From assembly GCF_027594825.1 (NCBI RefSeq), contig NZ_CP088930.1, positions 558,001-622,000 of the forward strand: a DNA stretch of 64,000 bases, read 5' to 3'. Under the pieces are notes generated by a model. That model worked only from the letters and a program-made list of their open reading frames with translations, made no database searches and was not told the origin of the DNA. The stretch is from Serratia liquefaciens. Its GTDB lineage: Bacteria; Pseudomonadota; Gammaproteobacteria; Enterobacterales; Enterobacteriaceae. Every line of letters starts with the position of its first letter. Within the stretch, counting starts at the first letter, position 1. Positions 19,800-28,418 of the stretch are shown piece by piece. The translations under genes were made by a program, and so were the position numbers.

Positions 19800-19855
19800 A
19801 TGCCGCAGCGGGCATGGTTTAATAACGCCAAATCATTTGTGATCGGGATTTAATT

Positions 19856-20179
19856 ATGGATTTGAATAACCGCCTTACTGAAGACGAAACGCTGGAACAG
19901 GCTTACGACATCTTTCTGGAACTGGCCGGCGACAATCTGGATCCGGCGGATATTCTGCTGTTCAATCTGCAGTTTGAGGAGCGCGGTGGCGCAGAACTGT
20001 ATGACCCTGCGGAAGACTGGTCGGAACATGTGGATTTTGACCTGAACCCGGATTTCTTTGCCGAGGTAGTGATTGGCCTGGCTGACAGCGATGGCGAGCC
20101 GATCAATGACGTTTTTGCCCGCGTACTGCTCTGCCGCGAGAAAGACCACAAGCTTTGCCATATCCTGTGGAAAGAGTAA
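19856..20179 (+). CDS. yciU: YciU family protein (UPF0263)
   Basis: A very acidic 107-residue cytoplasmic protein, nearly identical in plan to E. coli YciU ([48 protein letters not shown]). No function is proved; the acidic surface suggested a DNA-mimic role for the family. It follows clsA in both genomes. In E. coli oppF comes next; here 7.2 kb are inserted. Confidence 0.93.
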
Positions 20180-20196
20180 CCTTTTGATACCCATAT

Positions 20197-20227
20197 AACC
20201 CTGTCGGTCATCGCGACCGGCAGGGTT
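20197..20227 (+). terminator. Hairpin between yciU and the DeoR-type gene
   Basis: AACCCTGTCGGTC-ATCGC-GACCGGCAGGGTT is a 13-bp stem with one G-T pair, between convergent genes. The following T tract is short, so the strength is uncertain. Confidence 0.65.
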
Positions 20228-20237
20228 GCTTAGCCCC

Positions 20238-21014
20238 TCAGGCCACAATCACCTGGAGATTTGCCGGGAAAACCAGGTTCTTCAGTTTCTTCTCCGGATC
20301 GCTGGTCACCAGCCACGAGATATCTTTTAACTCTGCCACCAGCCCTGTCGCATGGTTATTCAACTTGTGTCCATCGGCAAGGACAATGGTTTTGTTGCTG
20401 TTTTTGATCATCTGACGGGCAATGGCGGCCTCGTTCAAATCCTGATCCATCACCCCTGCCTTTGGGCTCACTGCCCCGGCGCCGATGACCGCATAATCCG
20501 CATAGAAAGCGCTGATCCCCTGCAATGCCACCGGGCCAATGCACTCCATTTTCGACAGGCCGAACTGCCCGCCAATCAGGATCAGGTTAATCGTTGAATT
20601 ATCATGGAACAGGTTGGCGATCACCGGAGAATTGGTGATGACGGTAAGCTGGTTAATCCCGGCAATCTGCTTGGCAAATTCCAGCGTCGTGGTCCCGAAG
20701 TCGATAAAAAGCGAGTCCCCTGGCTTGATCAATTCGGCCGCTTTAATGGCAATGGCCTTTTTGTCATCCTCGGCCAGTCTGGCCCGCTGATTAAACTCCA
20801 GCTCAAACCCATATTGAGCAATGACCGCCCCGCCATGGATTTTCTTGATGTGTTTCAGCTCTTCAAGCTTATTCAGGTCTCTGCGGATGGTTTCCTGCGA
20901 GACATTAAAGTCATCAGCCAACTCATTGACGAACACCTGCCCACTATTTTTCAACTTCTCGAGAATGATGTTCCTTCGTTCTAATGCGTTTGAGTAATCC
21001 ATCTTCTGATCCAT
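20238..21014 (-). CDS. DeoR-family transcriptional regulator
   Basis: A 258-residue regulator with an N-terminal winged helix (about 8-65; VFVNELADDFNVSQETIRRDLNKLE is the recognition part) and a DeoR C-terminal sensor domain (DFGTTTLEFAKQI, VITNSPVIANLF, LADGHKLN), which usually binds a phosphorylated sugar or polyol. Overall plan is that of GlpR. It is divergent from the kinase/permease operon and probably controls it and the flavoprotein operon. The 21015-21306 gap holds repeated AACCACA heptamers and two palindromes. Confidence 0.9.
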   Translation of the reverse strand: MDQKMDYSNALERRNIILEKLKNSGQVFVNELADDFNVSQETIRRDLNKLEELKHIKKIHGGAVIAQYGFELEFNQRARLAEDDKKAIAIKAAELIKPGDSLFIDFGTTTLEFAKQIAGINQLTVITNSPVIANLFHDNSTINLILIGGQFGLSKMECIGPVALQGISAFYADYAVIGAGAVSPKAGVMDQDLNEAAIARQMIKNSNKTIVLADGHKLNNHATGLVAELKDISWLVTSDPEKKLKNLVFPANLQVIVA

Positions 21015-21067
21015 TATGTTGTCTTTAGCATTATAAAAAGTGTGGGTTTAGATGACGTTTTAATTGC

Positions 21068-21089
21068 TTGGTAGACAATTGTTTACCAA
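21068..21089. promoter_or_regulatory. 22-bp near-perfect palindrome
   Basis: The left arm TTGGTAGACAA and right arm TTGTTTACCAA are complementary except for one pair. It lies 54 bases upstream of the DeoR-type gene and is a strong candidate operator or autoregulatory site. Confidence 0.5.
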
Positions 21090-21134
21090 CTCCTCACGTG
21101 AAGCAACCGCCTATTTCACTTTTCACAGGGCAAA

Positions 21135-21161
21135 AACCACAACAACCACAGCATAACCACA
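21135..21161. repeat. AACCACA heptamer array, kinase side
   Basis: AACCACA occurs at 21135, 21144 and 21155, spaced 9 and 11 bases, with a further copy at 21281-21287. The same heptamer is clustered upstream of the flavoprotein operon. Confidence 0.65.
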
Positions 21162-21189
21162 CTGTCAGAAGTTAAAACCAAGACATTGG

Positions 21190-21213
21190 TCACAATTAAA
21201 TCGAAAATTGTGA
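21190..21213. promoter_or_regulatory. Inverted repeat before the kinase operon
   Basis: TCACAATT and AATTGTGA form a perfect 8+8 inverted repeat around 8 bases. It is close to the kinase promoter and could be an operator; it is not a canonical CRP site because the half-sites face the wrong way. Confidence 0.45.
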
Positions 21214-21306
21214 GTTTGATGTTGATTTAATGTGTAGTAATGATACTAAATAATATAAACGGGCACAATGACAACATCTAAACCACAAAATAGACCTGAG
21301 GGCTTT

Positions 21307-22749
21307 ATGCTGAATCAACGCTATGCAGCCATTGACCAAGGAACAACAGGAACACGCGTCGTGGTGTTCGGCGAGGATGGAAAACATTTTTCCCCCGCCG
21401 CCATCGCGCACAAACAATTAACGCCCAATCCTGGTTGGGTTGAACACGATCCCATGGAGATCCTGCGCAATATTCGCACCTGTCTTAGCCAGTGTGGGGT
21501 GGTGGATGCCATCGGTCTGGCGCATCAGGGCGAGAGCGTCGTCGCCTGGGATGCCCAGAGCGGCCTGCCGCTCTATAACGCCATTATTTGGCAGGATCAG
21601 CGTACAGGATCCGTCATTCGTCAGTTGCGCAATGAAGGTATGGAAGAAACCGTTCGGGCAAAAACCGGCCTGCCGCTGGATACCTATTTCTCCGGGAGCA
21701 AACTGGGCTGGATCATGCGCAATGTGCCTGGCGCCCGTGAACTCTCCCGTCGAGGCCACCTGCGGCTCGGCACCATGGACAGTTTTTTCATGTTCCACCT
21801 GTGCGGTACCCACGCCACGGATTACAACTCGGCCTCAAGGACCTCGCTGTTCAATATTCATACTCTGCAATGGGACGAGGAACTGTGTCGACTTTTTGGC
21901 GTCCCGATCGATGCCTTGCCTGAAATTCGCGACAATACCGGTCACTTTGGCGACGTAAACTGTGCCGGTAATACCACGCCACTGACGGCCTGTATCGTCG
22001 ATCAGTTTGCCGGCACCTATGGACATGGTTGTCTGCAACCTGGCCAGATGAAAATCACCTTCGGCACCGGCGCATTTTTGCAATCGATTACCGGCACCAA
22101 GGTTCCTGACTCACAGGGCTCGGGGCTGCTGCCGACGCTGTGCTGGAAATTACCGGGCGAGCCCCCGCTCTATGGCCTGGATGGCGGCGTCTATAACGCG
22201 GCATCGGCCATTAACTGGGCCAAAAAGATTGGCTTGTACAGCGATATCGAGGAGTTCTCCGATTTCCCTGAAGAACCGGCTATCGCTCGCGGGTTGGCTT
22301 TTATCCCGGCACTTTCCGGCTTGGGCTGCCCCTATTGGGATCGCTCGGCCGCCGGGTTATGGGCCGGGCTGTCGCTGGAAACCGAACGCAAAGACATGCT
22401 GCAGTCCATTCTTGAAGGGATCGCCATGCGCTCGGCCGAGGTGATCTTCGCCATGGACAAAGTTCGCCCGATCGGCGACACCATCTCCGTGGACGGCGGC
22501 TTGTCGGCGAACCTCTACTTTAAGCAGTTCCTTGCCAGCCTGATCCAAAAGCGCATCGTTACCCCTGCCAACCGGGAAATTACCGCCCAGGGCGTCGCCT
22601 TATTGGCCCGCAAGGGGTTAGGCAATACCCACCCCATGAACATCAGAACACAACAAACAACCACCGAGCCTGCGGAACGCGATCTGTCACCTTATTTTGC
22701 AAAATATAAGGACATTATTTCCCGTTCCCGCAACCTGCGCGGCGAATAA
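21307..22749 (+). CDS. FGGY-family carbohydrate kinase, glycerol-kinase-like
   Basis: An ATP-dependent kinase of 480 residues in the FGGY fold. It is close to GlpK over its length: DQGTTGTR at 10-17 (phosphate 1), PGWVEHDPMEI, YNAIIWQDQRT, YFSGSKLGWI, ASRTSLFNIHT, FGTGAFL and a late VDGGLSAN. Of the GlpK substrate residues, E76, W95, Y127 and D232 are kept, but the Arg of GlpK NQRET is G75 here (HQGES). That Arg contacts a glycerol hydroxyl, so the substrate may differ from glycerol. The start at 21307 follows GAGG at 5 bases; an upstream ATG at 21268 lacks a good site. Followed after 23 bases by the EutH-like gene. Confidence 0.88.
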   Translation: MLNQRYAAIDQGTTGTRVVVFGEDGKHFSPAAIAHKQLTPNPGWVEHDPMEILRNIRTCLSQCGVVDAIGLAHQGESVVAWDAQSGLPLYNAIIWQDQRTGSVIRQLRNEGMEETVRAKTGLPLDTYFSGSKLGWIMRNVPGARELSRRGHLRLGTMDSFFMFHLCGTHATDYNSASRTSLFNIHTLQWDEELCRLFGVPIDALPEIRDNTGHFGDVNCAGNTTPLTACIVDQFAGTYGHGCLQPGQMKITFGTGAFLQSITGTKVPDSQGSGLLPTLCWKLPGEPPLYGLDGGVYNAASAINWAKKIGLYSDIEEFSDFPEEPAIARGLAFIPALSGLGCPYWDRSAAGLWAGLSLETERKDMLQSILEGIAMRSAEVIFAMDKVRPIGDTISVDGGLSANLYFKQFLASLIQKRIVTPANREITAQGVALLARKGLGNTHPMNIRTQQTTTEPAERDLSPYFAKYKDIISRSRNLRGE

Positions 22750-22772
22750 ATAATAAGAAAGTGGAGGCAATT

Positions 22773-24020
22773 ATGTCCGAGATTGGCAACATCATTATCT
22801 ATATCATTATGGCCGGAACCCTGCTTGGTGCCATGGCATCGGTGGTCAAACCCGAAAGCGGCTTAGGCAAAGAGTTCGTCAATGGCATTCATTCCATTGG
22901 CCCGGTCTTTCTGGCCCAGGCCGGCATTATGGCGGCAATCCCCATTCTGTCCTACGTCATTACCTACACCGTTGGCCCCCTGTTCCAATCTATGGGATCG
23001 GATGCGTCCATTGCCGCCCTGTCGATTATCGCCGTTGATATGGGCGGCTATCAGTTGGCGGACGCCATTGCCGCCAACCGCGACCAATGGATCACGGCCA
23101 TGCTGATTGGCTACACCTCCGGGGCCAGCATCGTTTATTTAATTCCGGTCGGCCTGGTCATGCTGCAACAAAAAGACCACAAATATCTGGCGCTGGGTGC
23201 CATGGCGGGCTTAATCAGCATCCCGTTTGGCGTGCTGATATCATTGATGATCATCACGCTTAATAATATTCCGGTACGGGATATCATCTCTACGGCGTCC
23301 CCCGCCAACCATTATTTAAGCATCGACTTTTTCAATGCCTTGCAACTGCTTTCCCCGCTGTTCGTCTTTTGTATCCTGCTGGCATTAGGGCTGAAATACC
23401 GCACGCTCTGGATGGTAAAATGCTTCCTGTTCTTCGGTAAGATTATGGATGCCTTTATCAAAATGGTGCTGGCTGCCTGCATCATTGAGCACTTCACCGG
23501 GGTCTTTAGCAAAGTCTTTGGCGGCTGGGTGTTCGATCCGCTTTTCGCCGACGAAAAAGAACTGTATCGGGCGATTGAGATTGCCGGCTATATCGGCATC
23601 ATGCTGGCGGGGACCTTCCCGATTTGCTACCTGTTCCAAAAATATTGCCAGCGCCCGATGAAGTTTATCGGTCGACAGCTTCGGCTCACGGATGCCGGGG
23701 CCATCGGCATGGTCATGGTGCTGGCCAACATCATTGCCGTTTATCACCTGTTCAAAGATATGCGCGCCCGTGACAAAGTGCTGTGCGTGGCCTTTGGTAT
23801 CTGCGCCCAGGCGACCTTAGGCGACCACTTGGCCTTTACCGCCAACTTCCAGCCCACCCTGGTCCTGCCGATTATGGTCGGCAAATTCCTTGCCGGCGCC
23901 ATTGCCGTAACCATCGCAATCTTTATTTCCGTACCGGAGGCGCAACGGATGGAGCAACGCGACGAGCTCGAAGAGGCGGCGGCGCAAAGCGCCAGGCCAA
24001 GCGTTCCTCTGACAGTTTAA
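22773..24020 (+). CDS. EutH-like membrane permease
   Basis: A 415-residue protein with about ten hydrophobic segments. The pattern follows ethanolamine permease EutH: DMGGYQLADAIA, YLIPVGLVML, HKYLALGAMAGLISIPFG, a later AIEIAGYIGIMLAGTFP, AGAIGMVMVLANIIA and LGDHLAFTANFQP near the end. EutH proteins transport ethanolamine. No eut enzymes are present; the partner is a kinase, so the substrate may be another small alcohol or amino alcohol. GGAGG lies 6 bases before the chosen ATG. The last 30 residues are a polar tail. Confidence 0.83.
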   Translation: MSEIGNIIIYIIMAGTLLGAMASVVKPESGLGKEFVNGIHSIGPVFLAQAGIMAAIPILSYVITYTVGPLFQSMGSDASIAALSIIAVDMGGYQLADAIAANRDQWITAMLIGYTSGASIVYLIPVGLVMLQQKDHKYLALGAMAGLISIPFGVLISLMIITLNNIPVRDIISTASPANHYLSIDFFNALQLLSPLFVFCILLALGLKYRTLWMVKCFLFFGKIMDAFIKMVLAACIIEHFTGVFSKVFGGWVFDPLFADEKELYRAIEIAGYIGIMLAGTFPICYLFQKYCQRPMKFIGRQLRLTDAGAIGMVMVLANIIAVYHLFKDMRARDKVLCVAFGICAQATLGDHLAFTANFQPTLVLPIMVGKFLAGAIAVTIAIFISVPEAQRMEQRDELEEAAAQSARPSVPLTV

Positions 24021-24088
24021 TTCCCTGATTATCCCCCGCCGTGCCTGGCCACCAGGCACGGCTTTCTTTTAAGCCTATGAGGTTTTCC

Positions 24089-24445
24089 ATGCGTAAGATA
24101 TTCCTTGCCTGCCCCTACAGCCATAGCGATGAAAACGTAGTACAAGAGCGTTTTCTCGCCTGCAACAGGGTTGCCGCCAACATCATCGAGGCAGGCCATG
24201 CGGTTTTCAGCCAGGTCACGATGTCGCACCCGATTAATTTGCAGCTGCAAAACACCGATAAAACAGCGATTGGCAAAATGTGGGCGCCGGTAGACGCACT
24301 GTTTTTAGCCATGATGGAAGAGTTGATTATTTTGGATCTTCCCGGTTGGGATAAAAGCGCAGGCATTAAACGAGAGATTGAGTTTTATCAGTCGCGCAAT
24401 CAACGCGTAAGCCTGTGGTCCGAGGTTGAACACGAATTCAAATAG
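24089..24445 (+). CDS. DUF1937 protein, nucleoside-deoxyribosyltransferase-like fold
   Basis: A 118-residue cytoplasmic protein. The motifs FLACPYSHSDENVVQERF, AANIIEAGHAVFSQVT and the later LIILDLPGWDKSAGIKREIEF resemble the small DUF1937/DUF4406 group, related to nucleoside 2-deoxyribosyltransferases. It is third in the kinase operon, 68 bases after the permease, with GAGG 7 bases before its ATG. Its contribution to the pathway is unknown; it could clear a side product or act on a nucleotide-linked intermediate. Confidence 0.78.
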   Translation: MRKIFLACPYSHSDENVVQERFLACNRVAANIIEAGHAVFSQVTMSHPINLQLQNTDKTAIGKMWAPVDALFLAMMEELIILDLPGWDKSAGIKREIEFYQSRNQRVSLWSEVEHEFK

Positions 24446-24469
24446 CTCGCTGAGGTACCAGAATAAACT

Positions 24470-24491
24470 AAGCCTGCATATGCAGGCTTTT
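24470..24491. terminator. Terminator between the kinase operon and flavoprotein operon
   Basis: AAGCCTGC-ATAT-GCAGGCTT, a perfect 8-bp stem followed by TT on the plus strand, lies between convergent operons. Confidence 0.8.
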
Positions 24492-24515
24492 CACTTGGCT
24501 GGATGGGGAATAGCG

Positions 24516-25733
24516 CTATCGGGCAATCACGGTCAGTTGACTGTCCGGGGTCACGCCAGAGATATCGATATTTTTCAGAAGAATACGGCGTTCAGGCAAA
24601 CAGCGGTGTGTTCCGCGATAAAGCTCCTTTTCGCCATCGCGCACGATAATCTCGCCTTTATGGTAACGGTTAACACGGACGTTGAGCGTGACGCAACCCG
24701 CAGCCTGCGCTGAGACGGAAACCCGATTTGGCGCAGCAAGACGGAATACTTCATCCAGTTGAATGGCAACATTGAATCGCGGCGCGTCATCCTGTTGCAG
24801 AGATTGCGCAACCTTCTGGCCTACGCGCAACCCTTCCTGGTAACACTGATCCCCCATATCGGCTGGGTGGGTCATATTGCCTGCGACATAATAGTCCGGA
24901 TCGGAACAGCGACCATGCTGATCGAACCATGGGCGGCCAGTCTCAGGCTCATAGGCCAAATGGCTGTTACGGATCAGCGTGTACTCGCCGGTAAAGCGTC
25001 CGGTAAAGATGATGCTGTCGCAGGCCAGCCGTTGTGAGCTGCCGTCTGCGGCGGTAAATTCGATGCTTTCCACCCGCTCGCCGCCATTGATTTGAGTGAC
25101 ATGCGCACCCAGATGGAGTTTAACCCCCATAAGACGGGCATATAGCGCGGCCACGCGGAACGCCGTTGGCCGGGTGTTTTCATCGATCATAGCCAGCGCC
25201 TTGATGCCCGCATTGCGCAGCGTCCAGATCGTGGAAAAACTGACCAACTCAGACCCGATGATCACCGGCTTAATGCCCGGCTTGAGTTTTTTCAGATAGA
25301 TAAACTGCTGTAACGCACCAGCAGTCAAAACCCCCTGAGGCCTGACGCCACTGACCAGCCTGGCGTGGCGCGGCGTTTCGCGCACGCCCGTGGCAATAAT
25401 CACACGTTTGGCATGCAAGGTTTCAAGGCCCCGATCGCCAGAGATGATCACCTCACCGCCGGGCTTGATATTTACCACCGTGGTGCCGGTTCTGATTTCA
25501 CAATGGTTTTCCACCAGGCTCAGGATGCGTTCGGCCCAGAGGTGCCCTTTCATCGGCCGGTGAAAAGTCTGCAGGCCGAACGTCGGATGACGGCAATGGC
25601 GCGGTACGCCGCCCGCCTGCTTTTCCCTTTCCAACAGCAGAACGCGGTTTACGCCTTCATCCCATAAAGCGCGGGCGGCGGCCAAACCGGCCGGCCCGGC
25701 ACCAATAATAATCACGTCATATGACTGACTCAT
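24516..25733 (-). CDS. NAD(P)/FAD-dependent oxidoreductase
   Basis: A 405-residue flavoprotein. The FAD dinucleotide motif is GAGPAG at 11-16 (VIIIGAGPAGLAAARAL), with ATGVRETPRHARLVSG (ATG motif) near 115 and a second nucleotide domain at about 155-260. The second domain lacks a clean GxGxxG (IIGSELVSF), so NAD(P) use is uncertain. The last 80 residues form a separate beta-rich part. Its ATG overlaps the upstream flavoprotein stop (ATGA), so the two are co-made, as with the paired flavoproteins of GlpA/GlpB-like and opine or hydrogen-cyanide-synthase-like complexes. Confidence 0.85.
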   Translation of the reverse strand: MSQSYDVIIIGAGPAGLAAARALWDEGVNRVLLLEREKQAGGVPRHCRHPTFGLQTFHRPMKGHLWAERILSLVENHCEIRTGTTVVNIKPGGEVIISGDRGLETLHAKRVIIATGVRETPRHARLVSGVRPQGVLTAGALQQFIYLKKLKPGIKPVIIGSELVSFSTIWTLRNAGIKALAMIDENTRPTAFRVAALYARLMGVKLHLGAHVTQINGGERVESIEFTAADGSSQRLACDSIIFTGRFTGEYTLIRNSHLAYEPETGRPWFDQHGRCSDPDYYVAGNMTHPADMGDQCYQEGLRVGQKVAQSLQQDDAPRFNVAIQLDEVFRLAAPNRVSVSAQAAGCVTLNVRVNRYHKGEIIVRDGEKELYRGTHRCLPERRILLKNIDISGVTPDSQLTVIAR

Positions 25734-27127
25734 TCCACCCTCCCAACAACCAGAGTGTTGTCCAAACGATCGCCCACGATTTCGGCCACCTGATTACTGC
25801 AGAAAAAGCCGTTGCAGCGTCCCATCATGACGCGGGTGCGGCGACGCAAACCACCGATACACTCAGGCGGAACCGCCGAGTGGAATGCCGCCTCCAGCTC
25901 GCGCCGTGTGACTAATTCACAATGACACACGATGCCGCCATTGCCCGAACAGGTATAATCGCGCGGCTGATAATCAGACAGCATCGGCATCACCGGCCAC
26001 TGGAATTCAGCGGGCGGTTGATGCGTAAATAGCGGGTTGAAATGGTCGCGATAAAGCGTTTCTACATGGGCGGCAATCCCCAACGCAGCGGTCAGCCCGG
26101 TGGAGCGGATCCCTCCTACGCTGATCCAATTTTCCTGCGGGTAGTGATAAATTCGATACTCTTTCTTTTCCGTTGCCGGCCGTAGCCCGGCGTAGGTGGC
26201 GGTCACGCTGTATTGCGTCAATGTCGGCAACATCCGACTGCCTTTTTCAATCAGCCCTTTAAGCACCGACTCATCGACATCGGCCCGGTTGCGATCGGTT
26301 TGCTCTTCAGCCGTCGGACCCAGGATCATATTGCCGAAAATGGTTCGACACAGCAGCACGCCTTTGGTGGTGGGCGTCGGAACCGGCAGGATAATGGCAT
26401 TGATATCTGCCGCAGCGGCTTTGTCATAGACCAGAAACTGCCCTTTCCTTGGGCGGATTTCATAATCCGGTTTGCGCCACAGGCCATCAACCAGGTCGCC
26501 ATGGTTACCCGCACAGTTGATCACCAGCCGAGTGCGCACGCTGCCCTGGTCGGTCTGCAATAGCCAACCTTGCTCGTCGCGCGTCGCCTTGGTCACTTCG
26601 CAGTTAAAACGGTATGCCCCACCGTGCATCACCGCCTGCGTAACGTAAGCGAGTGGTGCGCTCCAGGGATCGATGACATATTCGCCCGGAACCCATACTC
26701 CACCCAGCGCGCCATCCGCCAGTTTTGGCTCACGCAGATAAACTTCGGCGGCCGAAATCTGCACCACGTCCGTCACCCCATTTTCATGGGCCTGTTTCAC
26801 GATGCCAGGCAGCGCCGCGAGCTGTTCTTCGTTCCAGGCCACCACGATGGCCGTGGTTTGCAACAGCGGGAGGTTCATCTTTTCCCGGATTGCCAGATAC
26901 TCGTCGTAACCCGCCTGCATGCATTGCAGTTCCAGGCTTCCCGTCGGCGCATCAAAACCGGTATGGAGGATCGCGCTGTTGGCTTTGCTAGCACCGGACA
27001 AGATATCGCCGCCTCGCTCCAGCAATAGCGTTTTCGCGCCCATCAGGGTGAAACGTCGGAAAACGGCGCATCCCACTACGCCGCCCCCGATAACTACCAC
27101 ATCAACATTTTCATTTAGCTGTGTCAT
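25730..27127 (-). CDS. FAD-dependent dehydrogenase with BFD-type [2Fe-2S] domain, GlpA-like
   Basis: A 465-residue protein of the DAO/GlpA family. FAD motif GGGVVG at 14-19, glycerol-3-phosphate-dehydrogenase-like SGASKANSAILHTGFDA, and LRPATEKKEYRIY and ISVGGIRSTGLTAALGI near 350-380. A C-terminal bacterioferritin-associated-ferredoxin-like domain has C401-x-C403 and C438-x4-C443. Such enzymes oxidise a phosphorylated polyol or hydroxy acid and pass electrons to iron-sulfur partners. The start at 27127 (MTQLNENVDVVVIGGG) follows GGTGAG; 27232 would add a spurious hydrophobic extension. Probably acts on the product of the kinase encoded nearby. Confidence 0.86.
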   Translation of the reverse strand: MTQLNENVDVVVIGGGVVGCAVFRRFTLMGAKTLLLERGGDILSGASKANSAILHTGFDAPTGSLELQCMQAGYDEYLAIREKMNLPLLQTTAIVVAWNEEQLAALPGIVKQAHENGVTDVVQISAAEVYLREPKLADGALGGVWVPGEYVIDPWSAPLAYVTQAVMHGGAYRFNCEVTKATRDEQGWLLQTDQGSVRTRLVINCAGNHGDLVDGLWRKPDYEIRPRKGQFLVYDKAAAADINAIILPVPTPTTKGVLLCRTIFGNMILGPTAEEQTDRNRADVDESVLKGLIEKGSRMLPTLTQYSVTATYAGLRPATEKKEYRIYHYPQENWISVGGIRSTGLTAALGIAAHVETLYRDHFNPLFTHQPPAEFQWPVMPMLSDYQPRDYTCSGNGGIVCHCELVTRRELEAAFHSAVPPECIGGLRRRTRVMMGRCNGFFCSNQVAEIVGDRLDNTLVVGRVE

Positions 27128-27161
27128 ACGCGTTTTCTCACCACCAAACATGTGATAATAA

Positions 27162-27206
27162 AACCACACAAACCACACCATTACAACATTAAAACCACAA
27201 ACCAGA
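27162..27206. repeat. AACCACA heptamer array, flavoprotein side
   Basis: AACCACA at 27162, 27171 and 27193, and the variant AACCAGA at 27200, 35-80 bases upstream of the flavoprotein start. Related TGTGG elements on the other strand lie near 27317 and 27340. The 27128-27355 region contains no other feature. Confidence 0.65.
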
Positions 27207-27355
27207 ATCACAAAGGCCACAGTAAAAATCATGTAAAAATAGAATTACCCATTGAATTTGATTTATTATTTTTAAATAAACACGCTGAGTTTCCTTTTTT
27301 AGCCGGGGGAGTAATTTGTGGCTTTTGTTGGTTTTGCGTTGTGGCGGGAATGCCA

Positions 27356-27387
27356 TAAAAAAAGGGTTCATGCAAACATGAACCCTT
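27356..27387 (-). terminator. Terminator of the opp operon
   Basis: On the minus strand AAGGGTTCATG-TTTG-CATGAACCCTT followed by TTTTT: a perfect 11-bp stem, 30 bases after the oppF stop. Confidence 0.95.
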
Positions 27388-27416
27388 CAGGCAACAAAAT
27401 GGAATGAAATGACCGT

Positions 27417-28418
27417 TTACAGCGGATCGACCTTCAGACAGGACACGGCATGGCGGAAGCTGCCTTCCAGCAGCGGACGCGTCTTGGCACATTCCGGCCC
27501 GGCGATCGGGCAGCGGGTGCGGAACACGCAGCCAGAAGGCGGATTGATCGGCGAAGGCAGTTCCCCTTCCAGTAACTGGATCTGCTTTTCCTTCTCCTTG
27601 TCCGGGTCCGGGATCGGCACCGCCGACATCAACGCCTTGGTGTAAGGATGTTGCGGATTGTGGTACACCTCATCATAAGTCCCCAGCTCCACCGCATGGC
27701 CCAGATACATCACCAACACACGGTCGGAGATGTGTTTGACCACCGCCAGATCGTGGGCGATAAAGATCAGCGACAGGCCCATTTCACGCTGCAGTTGCTG
27801 CAGCAGGTTCACCACCTGCGCCTGAATCGACACGTCCAGCGCCGAGACCGGTTCATCACAGATCACCAACTTGGGTTCGAGGATCAAGGCGCGTGCAATC
27901 CCAATACGCTGACACTGACCGCCAGAGAACTCATGCGGATAGCGGTTGATCAGGTTAGGCAGCAGGCCAACCTTCAGCATCATCGCCTTTACCTTGTCTT
28001 TCACTTCCTGACGCGGCATTTTTGGGTAATAGGTGCGCAGCGGTTCCGCGATGATTTCACCGATGGTCATACGCGGGTTCAGCGAGGCCAGCGGATCCTG
28101 GAAGATCATCTGGATGTCGCTGCGGGTTTTGCGCCAGTCGACGTCGCTCATGCCAAGCAAATCTTTACCCAACCAGGCCACGCGTCCACTGGTGGCTTTC
28201 ACCAGGCCGATAATGGCACGGGCAAACGTCGATTTTCCACAGCCGGACTCGCCGACCACGCCCAGGGTTTCCCCTTCGAACAGGCGCAGCGTCACACCGT
28301 CAACGGCTTTGAGCGTTTTCGGCGGCTGCCAGAACCACTGTTTGTCATCATGAATGTCGAAGTGCACTTTCAAATCGGCCACTTCGAGCAACACTTTCTT
28401 GTCGGTTACCGCTGTCAT
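27417..28418 (-). CDS. oppF: Oligopeptide ABC transporter ATP-binding protein OppF
   Basis: One of the two cytoplasmic ATPases powering peptide import. The 333 residues hold Walker [10 protein letters not shown], signature [15 protein letters not shown], Walker [13 protein letters not shown] and a C-terminal oligopeptide-transporter domain with the cysteine motif [14 protein letters not shown], which binds an iron-sulfur cluster in relatives. It is the last gene of oppABCDF and its ATG overlaps the oppD stop (ATGA). Confidence 0.96.

Follow-up and report, generated by a model that had tools for sequence, protein, structure and literature searches.

A conserved kinase–flavoprotein gene set with a EutH-family permease in Serratia liquefaciens, a candidate pathway for small amino alcohols

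Introduction

In the Serratia genome the interval between yciU and oppF holds genes for a DeoR regulator, an FGGY kinase, a EutH permease, a DUF1937 protein, a DAO flavoprotein with a [2Fe-2S] domain and its Pyr_redox partner, raising the question of which compound these six proteins would together import and degrade. We addressed this question starting from a window of 64,000 nucleotides of Serratia liquefaciens DNA. A literature search returned no description of this gene set or of a system built from it.

Results

A six-gene block between yciU and oppF

Open reading frames and profile matches recovered all six genes that a first-pass annotation of this DNA had placed between yciU and oppF (Table 1). 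The kinase, EutH and DUF1937 genes converge with the DAO and Pyr_redox genes, the latter two overlapping by four bases (25730–25733), and the regulator (DeoRC, 151.8 bits) is divergent from the kinase. The tabulated starts of the kinase, EutH, DUF1937 and DAO genes were refined from homologue lengths. The block had also been said to be missing from this site in E. coli, and indeed oppF and yciU lie 52 bases apart in K-12, while a megablast search of the E. coli collection returned no record matching the block. The window falls within the liquefaciens/proteamaculans group of Serratia; the locus nearest to it, L032, belongs to a genome named S. liquefaciens, with EutH 99% identical.

Table 1 Features of the block, in window coordinates.
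Feature	Position	Strand	Remarks
DeoR/GlpR-type transcriptional regulator	20238..21014	(-)	divergent from kinase gene; Pfam DeoRC + HTH_DeoR
Candidate operator	21190..21213	(.)	inverted repeat TCACAATT-N8-AATTGTGA; between DeoR and kinase genes
FGGY kinase	21307..22749	(+)	start refined; longest ORF opens 21268
EutH-family permease	22773..24020	(+)	NCBIfam NF011668 subgroup; ORF with GTG start opens 22761
Hairpin	24038..24062	(+)	11 pairs (9 G-C), T-rich tail; between EutH and DUF1937
DUF1937 protein	24089..24445	(+)	ORF with GTG start opens 24041
Pyr_redox flavoprotein	24516..25733	(-)	partner of DAO protein
GlpA/type 2 GlpO-like DAO flavoprotein	25730..27127	(-)	C-terminal BFD [2Fe-2S] domain; ORF can open from 27232
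Terminator-like hairpin	27361..27388	(-)	12 pairs + T run; 3' of oppF, ahead of DAO gene; consensus match only

The inverted repeat, a weak candidate for an operator, has one match in the window at up to three mismatches. Of 36 upstream regions, both sides of a shared spacer being counted, 4 carry a repeat of its type, all of them in L032 or L033. The hairpin between EutH and DUF1937 is a possible attenuator. Terminator-like sites in the region occurred at chance level (9 found versus 9.7 expected), and no sigma-70-like site was found ahead of any gene of the block.

The kinase and both flavoproteins form a conserved core

Among 50 named loci of the EutH clade, the Pyr_redox gene was present at all 50, the kinase and DAO genes at 49 each, DeoR at 44 and DUF1937 at 41, this conserved set being reshuffled into five recurrent gene orders. 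None of the 30 loci with EutH relatives outside the clade carried this kinase, DAO protein or Pyr_redox partner; DeoR-type genes occurred at 7 of them. Across 295 genomes of the same family, the EutH clade was found in 14 and the kinase in 15 (Fisher p = 4.7e-23, relatedness ignored), and the kinase directly adjoined EutH in 14/14 clade-positive genomes, so that the conserved co-occurrence called for by the first-pass annotation was observed. Random neighbours of the kinase were likewise not seen, since both flavoprotein genes adjoin it at 59 of 60 kinase loci (49 named, 9 plasmid, L152 and L153); at the one remaining locus, L059, on a contig of 5.3 kb, the Pyr_redox partner alone is present. 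L152 has the core genes without EutH or an obvious substitute transporter, and L079 has EutH and the flavoproteins without the kinase.

Kinase, EutH, DUF1937 and the two flavoproteins had been proposed as one five-gene set; their association stood, whereas EutH as an essential member did not, as TRAP or amino-acid permease genes are found in other clusters. The core of the set is the kinase with the DAO and Pyr_redox flavoproteins, mostly accompanied by DeoR. Besides Serratia, the set occurs in Pseudomonas, Providencia and rhizobia. In P. aeruginosa, where it presumably corresponds to PA1487–PA1492, the current annotation names one glycerol kinase, two oxidoreductases, EutH and one DUF protein.

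Transporters and chemoreceptors

EutH of the block exceeded the cut-offs of both PF04346 (369.3 versus 25) and NF011668 (691.7 versus 575) and is the sole EutH match in the Serratia genome. EutB and EutC were absent from the locus stretches of all 50 EutH-clade loci; outside the clade EutB was present at 12/30 and EutC at 13/30 loci, and other EutHs there adjoin choline-kinase-like enzymes. Six related clusters carry a TRAP transporter in place of EutH, with a DctP protein 61–65% identical to PDB 4UAB (Csal_0678), whose structure was solved with ethanolamine (PMC12410723), and two carry an amino-acid permease.

Two Pseudomonas loci, L109 and L061, encode a chemoreceptor whose best PDB match is CqsR. 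CqsR binds ethanolamine, L-alaninol and serinol, ethanolamine most tightly and serinol most weakly of the three (15.9 µM), accepts small alpha-amino substituents (methyl and hydroxymethyl, for example), and bonds serinol through W138. Of eight CqsR contacts, the L109 receptor keeps six (F123 to Y, W138 to N) and that of L061 seven (W138 to F; by eye). The earlier guess of an amino-alcohol substrate is supported by the TRAP binding protein and the chemoreceptor, by the gene neighbourhoods of related EutHs and by the kinase pocket described below.

The kinase pocket differs from that of glycerol kinase

The kinase matched FGGY_N and FGGY_C (185.8 and 89.8 bits), scored below the NCBIfam GlpK equivalog cut-off (TIGR01311, 428.2 versus 590.35 bits), and yielded a model for which the best 50 listed folds were glycerol kinases. 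Arg83, Glu84, Tyr135, Asp245 and Phe270 are specificity-determining positions, identical among GlpK clusters (PMC3245297). This signature is broken in the clade kinases at Arg83, which is Gly in 59/59 versus Arg in 31/31 GlpKs, the other four residues being kept in 59/59. The loop near the pocket is also changed (E303D in 54/59, F307Y in 58/59). In PfGK, Arg83 forms a salt bridge with Glu306, which may be equivalent to E. coli Glu303. In a FastTree phylogeny rooted on one paralogue, and leaving out FGGY matches 36–40% identical to E. coli GlpK (G302, G332, G336), the 59 clade kinases and the 31 GlpKs formed separate monophyletic groups (0.964 and 0.976), and by its sequence the kinase is placed as a sister clade of glycerol kinase.

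The flavoproteins and DUF1937

The DAO protein matched DAO (185 bits) and Fer2_BFD (27.3, cut-off 26), in agreement with its earlier description as a GlpA-like FAD dehydrogenase with a BFD [2Fe-2S] domain, and scored below the equivalog cut-offs for type 2 GlpO (NF033460, 200.1 versus 460) and GlpA (TIGR03377, 118 versus 552.8). Residues at GlpO H51, K258, R320 and S348 are kept in 57, 57, 58 and 58 of 58 DAO proteins, L079 being the sole exception at H51 and K258; we take K258, R320 and S348 to be functional positions. His51 of GlpO has been proposed as the base for the C2-hydroxyl (PMC10726252). The BFD cysteines of the window protein (CxC..CxxxxC) are spaced within one residue of those of E. 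coli GlpA, whereas the active site resembles type 2 GlpO (K258, S348), E. coli GlpA aligning D and R.

The partner protein (Pyr_redox_2, 76.9 bits) has the sarcosine oxidase alpha family as best NCBIfam match, far under the cut-off, and is fused to DAO-BFD in L077. By analogy with the suggestion for GlpA–GlpB, the [2Fe-2S] domain may feed this flavoprotein partner, not a separate ferredoxin. A DAO-fold subunit adjoining a second flavoprotein gene is likewise found in GlpABC and GlpTk-NOX-MOX (available text of PMC11962113); judging by position and annotation, no gene for a third subunit was seen between or next to the core genes in the window and the annotated plasmid clusters. DUF1937 (123.9 bits) has a solved relative, 1T1J of P. 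aeruginosa, in the N-(deoxy)ribosyltransferase-like superfamily.

Discussion

The predicted genes and their conserved co-occurrence can be read from the sequences, as can the change in the kinase pocket, the differing transporters and, in some clusters, the amino-alcohol-type chemoreceptor and TRAP protein; we infer the substrate class, substrate, reactions, product and regulation. Tentatively, at a little short of an even chance, the block would serve to degrade a small 2-amino alcohol, with serinol as the likeliest substrate, by a route leading through serinol phosphate to dihydroxyacetone phosphate (DHAP) and NH3. Serinol (2-amino-1,3-propanediol) is glycerol with an amine at C2, or ethanolamine with a hydroxymethyl arm. 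EutH would import it, and the GlpK-like kinase would phosphorylate one hydroxymethyl group. The DAO flavoprotein, acting together with the Pyr_redox protein and the [2Fe-2S] domain, would then oxidise C2 of serinol phosphate, and hydrolysis of the imine would release ammonia and DHAP, which could enter gluconeogenesis or glycolysis without an extra enzyme. DeoR would repress until the phosphorylated intermediate is present, and DUF1937 would have an accessory role.

FBPase genes at two loci (L034, L127), with an aldolase at L127, point to a triose phosphate product; the L034 genome has another FBPase elsewhere. Human enzymes slowly transaminate DHAP to serinol phosphate (PMC9283133), placing the two one step apart. 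Several observations count against serinol: FBPase occurs at 2 and aldolase (class II query only) at 1 of 61 system loci scanned (50 clade, 9 plasmid, L152 and L153), the kept His51 equivalent would fit a C2 alcohol at least as well as a C2 amine, and the evidence from TRAP and CqsR suits ethanolamine and alaninol no less than serinol. The L109 receptor has Asn at the serinol-bonding Trp, the chemoreceptor is found in 2/50 loci, and the TRAP genes belong to clusters other than those with EutH. In addition, a TRIS-degrading Pseudomonas strain, which may or may not carry the cassette, did not grow on serinol (available text of PMC10848231).

Ethanolamine itself, turned into phosphoethanolamine and oxidised at the carbon bearing the amine, with glycolaldehyde phosphate and ammonia as products, would suit the TRAP protein's identity to an ethanolamine-binding protein, the ligand order of CqsR and the EutB and EutC genes beside EutHs outside the clade. 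We nevertheless consider it unlikely: nearly all tested glycerol and glycerol-3-phosphate site residues are kept in kinase and dehydrogenase, the neighbouring FBPase and aldolase fit a three-carbon product, and the cassette has no conserved enzyme for a C2 phosphate. In Chelatococcus, moreover, EutB and EutC adjoin the gene set, so that an ethanolamine role would be redundant.

Another amine resembling glycerol, either 3-amino-1,2-propanediol (isoserinol) or L-alaninol, would be no better a prospect; its amine would take the place of Arg83, and oxidation by DAO would be at C2 or the C–N bond. Gly at position 83 with Glu84 kept would suit an ammonium group in the pocket, the GlpO-type His51 would suit oxidation of a C2-OH, and L-alaninol is a CqsR ligand; the products, however, aminoacetone phosphate and acetol phosphate, need further enzymes, none of which is conserved in the gene-cluster table, and the substituents tolerated by CqsR fit serinol and alaninol better than isoserinol.

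Improbable in our view is a second glycerol catabolic set, with isozymes of GlpK and glycerol-3-phosphate dehydrogenase and EutH as an unrelated neighbour. The nearest relatives of kinase and DAO protein are indeed glycerol kinase and type 2 GlpO, this route too would yield a triose phosphate, and PA1487 is listed among several putative glycerol kinases (available text of PMC8151288). Against this stand the absence of Arg83 throughout the clade, the invariable adjacency of EutH in the clade-positive family genomes, a true GlpK in the Serratia genome (87% identical to E. coli GlpK), and the transporters seen, namely EutH, the 4UAB-type TRAP and the amino-acid permease (glpF query left out). Equally improbable is a larger opine- or amide-like glyceryl- or serinol-amine conjugate, phosphorylated and then cleaved at C–N by the flavoproteins with DUF1937 performing an N-glycosidic step, for although the sarcosine oxidase and N-(deoxy)ribosyltransferase kinships, an octopine-dehydrogenase-like gene at L079 and amino-acid-type ABC transporter genes in or near L035, L036 and L041 would fit, the ABC transporter and octopine-dehydrogenase-like genes are not conserved from locus to locus, and EutH and the 4UAB-type TRAP are by kinship carriers of small amino alcohols.

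Returning to serinol, the set shares with glpFK/glpD an FGGY kinase followed by a FAD dehydrogenase, a DeoR/GlpR-family regulator and, at two loci, an FBPase neighbour recalling E. coli glpX beside glpK; it differs in Gly for Arg83, two flavoprotein genes, DUF1937 and its transporters. With eut operons it has EutH in common, carrying a kinase and flavoproteins in place of the ammonia lyase. C. jejuni makes serinol phosphate via a DHAP aminotransferase. This metabolite is shared with capsule biosynthesis (available text of PMC13276843), a biosynthetic route versus the catabolic one proposed here. The Pseudomonas TRIS cluster (taoAB, tupA) also serves amino-polyol catabolism, but uses GMC and aldehyde dehydrogenases, and the word 'kinase' is absent from the available text (PMC10848231). 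We consider it possible, though short of probable, that the set is an undescribed, patchily distributed serinol pathway in which a glycerol-3-phosphate dehydrogenase gave rise to a FAD amine dehydrogenase, the transporters are interchangeable and DUF1937 is a dedicated component; with the same reserve, a glycerol pathway might have been re-aimed at an amine analogue via one invariant kinase substitution.

Serinol and ethanolamine are present as amides in the C. jejuni capsule (available text of PMC12409886), and therefore natural sources exist. The invariant Arg83-to-Gly exchange offers a clean case for studying the evolution of enzyme specificity. If the proposal is true, DUF1937 would gain a pathway, amino-alcohol use would connect directly to triose phosphates with no ammonia lyase involved, and a testable function would be assigned to neglected genes of Pseudomonas (among them the P. 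aeruginosa set), Providencia, Serratia and rhizobia.

A six-gene block between yciU and oppF

The first-pass annotation had proposed a catabolic gene block between yciU and oppF that is absent from this site in E. coli. The block is real, with six genes lying between these two neighbours, and is missing from the site in E. coli K-12, where oppF adjoins yciU; a megablast search of the E. coli collection gave no match to it. The proposal as a whole stands, and more firmly than originally put, as the block represents a conserved and apparently so far undescribed cassette. The host belongs to the liquefaciens group of Serratia, the closest named locus being from S. liquefaciens (EutH 99%).

Genes and candidate signal of the block (window positions)
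Feature	Position	Strand	Remark
DeoR regulator	20238-21014	-	
FGGY kinase	21307-22749	+	
EutH	22773-24020	+	
G+C-rich hairpin with T-rich tail, EutH/DUF1937 gap	24038-24062		consensus match only
DUF1937	24089-24445	+	
Pyr_redox flavoprotein	24516-25733	-	
DAO flavoprotein with BFD [2Fe-2S] domain	25730-27127	-	

The hairpin behind EutH is a possible partial terminator within the operon. A further terminator-like hairpin separates oppF from the DAO gene, so that the DAO–Pyr_redox pair may be transcribed apart from opp, with such sites being not above chance in the region. The sigma-70-like sites were also near chance (8 in the scan, 5.8 expected), none of the eight preceding a block gene, and Rfam yielded nothing at the gathering threshold within 19800-27600. 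An operator common to all loci was rejected, the inverted repeat being limited to the two closest Serratia loci, as was a foreign base composition, with a G+C content of 50–58% for the block versus 47–60% for the flanks.

Conservation and rearrangement of the cassette

With EutH sequences aligned as the query, we scanned the genome collection; the analysis covers the 80 best among its 208 confirmed loci, of which 50 (L032–L080 and L109) carry an EutH with at least 60% identity to that of the window, hereafter the clade, and the remaining 30 one of 49–54%. The search for conserved co-occurrence, based on tblastn with bit-score limits of our own choice, bore out the gene association of the first-pass annotation: the clade loci contained the kinase in 49/50, DAO in 49/50, Pyr_redox in 50/50, DeoR in 44/50 and DUF1937 in 41/50 cases, versus 0/30 outside loci for each of kinase, DAO and Pyr_redox of the cassette type and 7/30 for DeoR. 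In nine clade loci at least one gene was not found, five on sequences shorter than 10 kb (L059, L060, L073, L077, L078), two on about 13 kb (L062, L068) and two on longer ones (L036, L079). Five gene orders recur, in 11, 9, 9, 7 and 5 loci, comprising a Providencia/Pragia type, that of the window, two mainly from Pseudomonas and one from S. marcescens; as the genes stay together despite this reshuffling, they likely work together. Pseudomonas protegens FD6 (L064) is one of the carriers. Fusions were observed as well: DAO, BFD and Pyr_redox form a single 764 aa protein in L077, with an ORF of equal length in L078, and a P. aeruginosa protein cluster (P0045, 48 members) is an EutH–DUF1937 fusion of 549 aa.

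Among 295 genomes sampled from the family, the clade EutH occurred in 14 and the kinase in 15, both being present and adjacent by coordinates in 14, and 28 other genomes contained only an EutH of 31–34% identity. The fifteenth kinase genome (G086, locus L152) carries the other five genes of the block but no EutH. Across the class, the kinase was present in only 2 of 369 sampled genomes, the window's own among them, so the set is sparse and patchy. Another genome of the genus (G025, L006) has one in-frame TGA in EutH, reflecting either gene decay or a sequencing error. In Candidatus Adiutrix (L079), EutH, DAO and the Pyr_redox partner occur without the kinase; behind them lie genes for a regulator of the RpiR type and for an octopine-dehydrogenase-like protein, as well as TRAP genes.

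DUF1937 matched six plasmid records, all six being kinase records too; it starts at most 50 bases from the kinase match in four (Ensifer, Roseateles, Sinorhizobium, Agrobacterium) and lies past EutH in the same cluster in the other two (P. aeruginosa). Across the phylum, only two of 398 genomes contained it: besides that of the window, G384, in which no core gene (kinase, DAO or Pyr_redox) was found within the surrounding 17 kb (L154). DUF1937 proteins of the same kind, with 64–71% identity, occur in Rhodococcus, Mycolicibacterium and Nocardia (clusters P0181, P0206, P0218, P0230).

In searches of the open literature, we found no description of the set under EutH/FGGY, DUF1937, PA1487–PA1492 or serinol catabolism in Pseudomonas, and no tested function for the set in the consulted papers that name PA1487–PA1492 genes. 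The tags PA1487–PA1491 presumably denote the P. aeruginosa copy, in agreement with the gene order in locus L135 and the PA1492/1T1J link. PA1487 is listed among putative glycerol kinases (PMC8151288), PA1490 is a predicted motility-related regulator (PMC8041468), PA1492/1T1J is described as uncharacterised (PMC7308715), and PA1489–PA1502 share one figure of a paper that takes PA1498–PA1502 as the allantoin-linked cluster (PMC8637920).

Kinase and dehydrogenase active sites

By sequence and predicted fold, the nearest relatives of the kinase are glycerol kinases, and the tree places it in a clade of its own apart from the true glycerol kinases (GlpK); the model (pLDDT 78.8) confirms the glycerol kinase fold and nothing more. 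We compared 59 kinases (the window's, those of 49 named loci and nine from plasmids, some closely related) with 31 GlpKs (E. coli and 30 loci, including the window genome's own GlpK). The GlpK specificity signature consists of Arg83, Glu84, Tyr135, Asp245 and Phe270, identical across GlpK clusters (PMC3245297), and in the P. falciparum structure Arg83 bonds the glycerol hydroxyls (PMC2680290). Among the contacts tested, D10, E84, W103, Y135, D245, Q246 and F270 are identical in 59/59 kinases, with the position of Arg83 being Gly in all 59 and Arg in 31/31 GlpKs. The predicted pocket is thus a glycerol-like site minus one charged contact, as would be expected if a positively charged group stands in for a hydroxyl.

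The best solved relative of DAO by sequence is the glycerophosphate oxidase (GlpO) 4x9m. Equivalents of GlpO His51, the proposed base (PMC10726252), Lys258, Arg320 and Ser348 are present in 57, 57, 58 and 58 of 58 DAO proteins, respectively, that of L079 being the sole one without the first two. In its BFD cysteines, DAO is similar to E. coli GlpA, whose cluster is thought to hand electrons to GlpB (PMC11962113). Together, DAO and Pyr_redox would form a two-flavin dehydrogenase acting on a glycerol-3-phosphate analogue.

Alternative transporters and chemoreceptors

Kinase matches were obtained on 12 plasmid records, nine of which were read. The transporter is EutH in the P. aeruginosa cluster, an amino-acid permease in those of Agrobacterium and 'Roseateles', and a TRAP system in Paracoccus, Neorhizobium, Chelatococcus, Tistrella and Rhizobium (detected by similarity in Neorhizobium and Rhizobium); the Roseomonas cluster has ABC genes nearby with no clear partner. 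Six TRAP binding proteins (L128, L129, L130, L132, L133 and the gammaproteobacterial L153) share 61–65% identity with the chain of PDB 4uab/4xf5. The 4XF5 structure, of the same sequence as 4UAB, contains 2-amino-1-propanol. The 4UAB protein, Csal_0678, was solved with ethanolamine gripped by Glu220 (PMC12410723), which by numbering probably corresponds to the GxTE glutamate present in all six. Because EutB was found next to just one of the six clusters (L130), the simplest reading for the other five is that the TRAP system supplies the cassette. At the edge of the Paracoccus cluster (L128) lie genes for an aldehyde dehydrogenase and a protein of the glutamine synthetase family, which may route ethanolamine through gamma-glutamylation.

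Two Pseudomonas loci contain a chemoreceptor inside the cluster; in L109 its gene separates the kinase from a GltP-like gene, and in L061 it follows immediately behind the kinase. Both sensor domains gave CqsR as the first PDB match (E about 1e-18), a protein whose structures contain ethanolamine, L-alaninol and serinol (PMC12410723). Compared over eight published ligand contacts, a more specific test than the amine motif of PMC10104139, L109 keeps six (W105, W151, Y169, D171, T196, D198; F123 is Tyr and W138 Asn) and L061, in an alignment read by eye, seven (W138 is Phe).

A 2-amino alcohol as candidate substrate

The outside EutH loci have EutB nearby in 12/30 and EutC in 13/30. A second EutH cassette, present in 11/30 (L082, L083, L087, L091, L092, L096, L101, L102, L108, L110, L111), encodes choline/ethanolamine-kinase-like and DAO-FAO_M-GCV_T (dimethylglycine-dehydrogenase-like) proteins, both in each locus, with domains read in L087 and L101 and the other loci assigned by similarity. 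It resembles a separate route in which a kinase acts ahead of a flavoprotein, perhaps on an N-methylated amino alcohol. In a further 3/30 (L084, L099, L100; two Neobacillus, one Fonticella), EutH lies near a LicA/LicC-like choline kinase and nucleotidyltransferase, suggesting amino-alcohol import for CDP-activated head groups.

These contexts, the TRAP protein, the chemoreceptors and the kinase pocket are four lines that point to a small 2-amino alcohol. Among the alternatives, plain glycerol isozymes are disfavoured by the loss of Arg83, and a classical eut system was rejected, EutB and EutC not being found near clade EutHs; by these tests, the cassette falls outside both the GlpK and the eut systems.

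Two loci bear on the product. In Agrobacterium HAMBI 105, the same-strand gene run extends into a class II aldolase and an FBPase, and in Ca. Pantoea deserta, whose genome has two FBPases, one lies between DUF1937 and Pyr_redox, similar to glpX adjoining glpK among the E. coli glycerol genes. The two cassette FBPases are only 33% identical, so their recruitments look independent. Such neighbours would suit a triose phosphate product. Neither ethanolamine nor alaninol gives a triose phosphate. Isoserinol could lead to glyceraldehyde 3-phosphate only if its terminal C–N is oxidised. Serinol, the most likely substrate, would be phosphorylated and then oxidised once at C2 to triose phosphate and ammonia; however, the FBPase clue is limited to 2/61 loci, a His base fits an alcohol, and serinol is bound weakest among the three CqsR ligands. 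Serinol phosphate arises by DHAP transamination (PMC9283133) and is used to build capsule amides (PMC13276843). In its predicted activities, the cassette would work like glycerol catabolism redirected to an amino alcohol.
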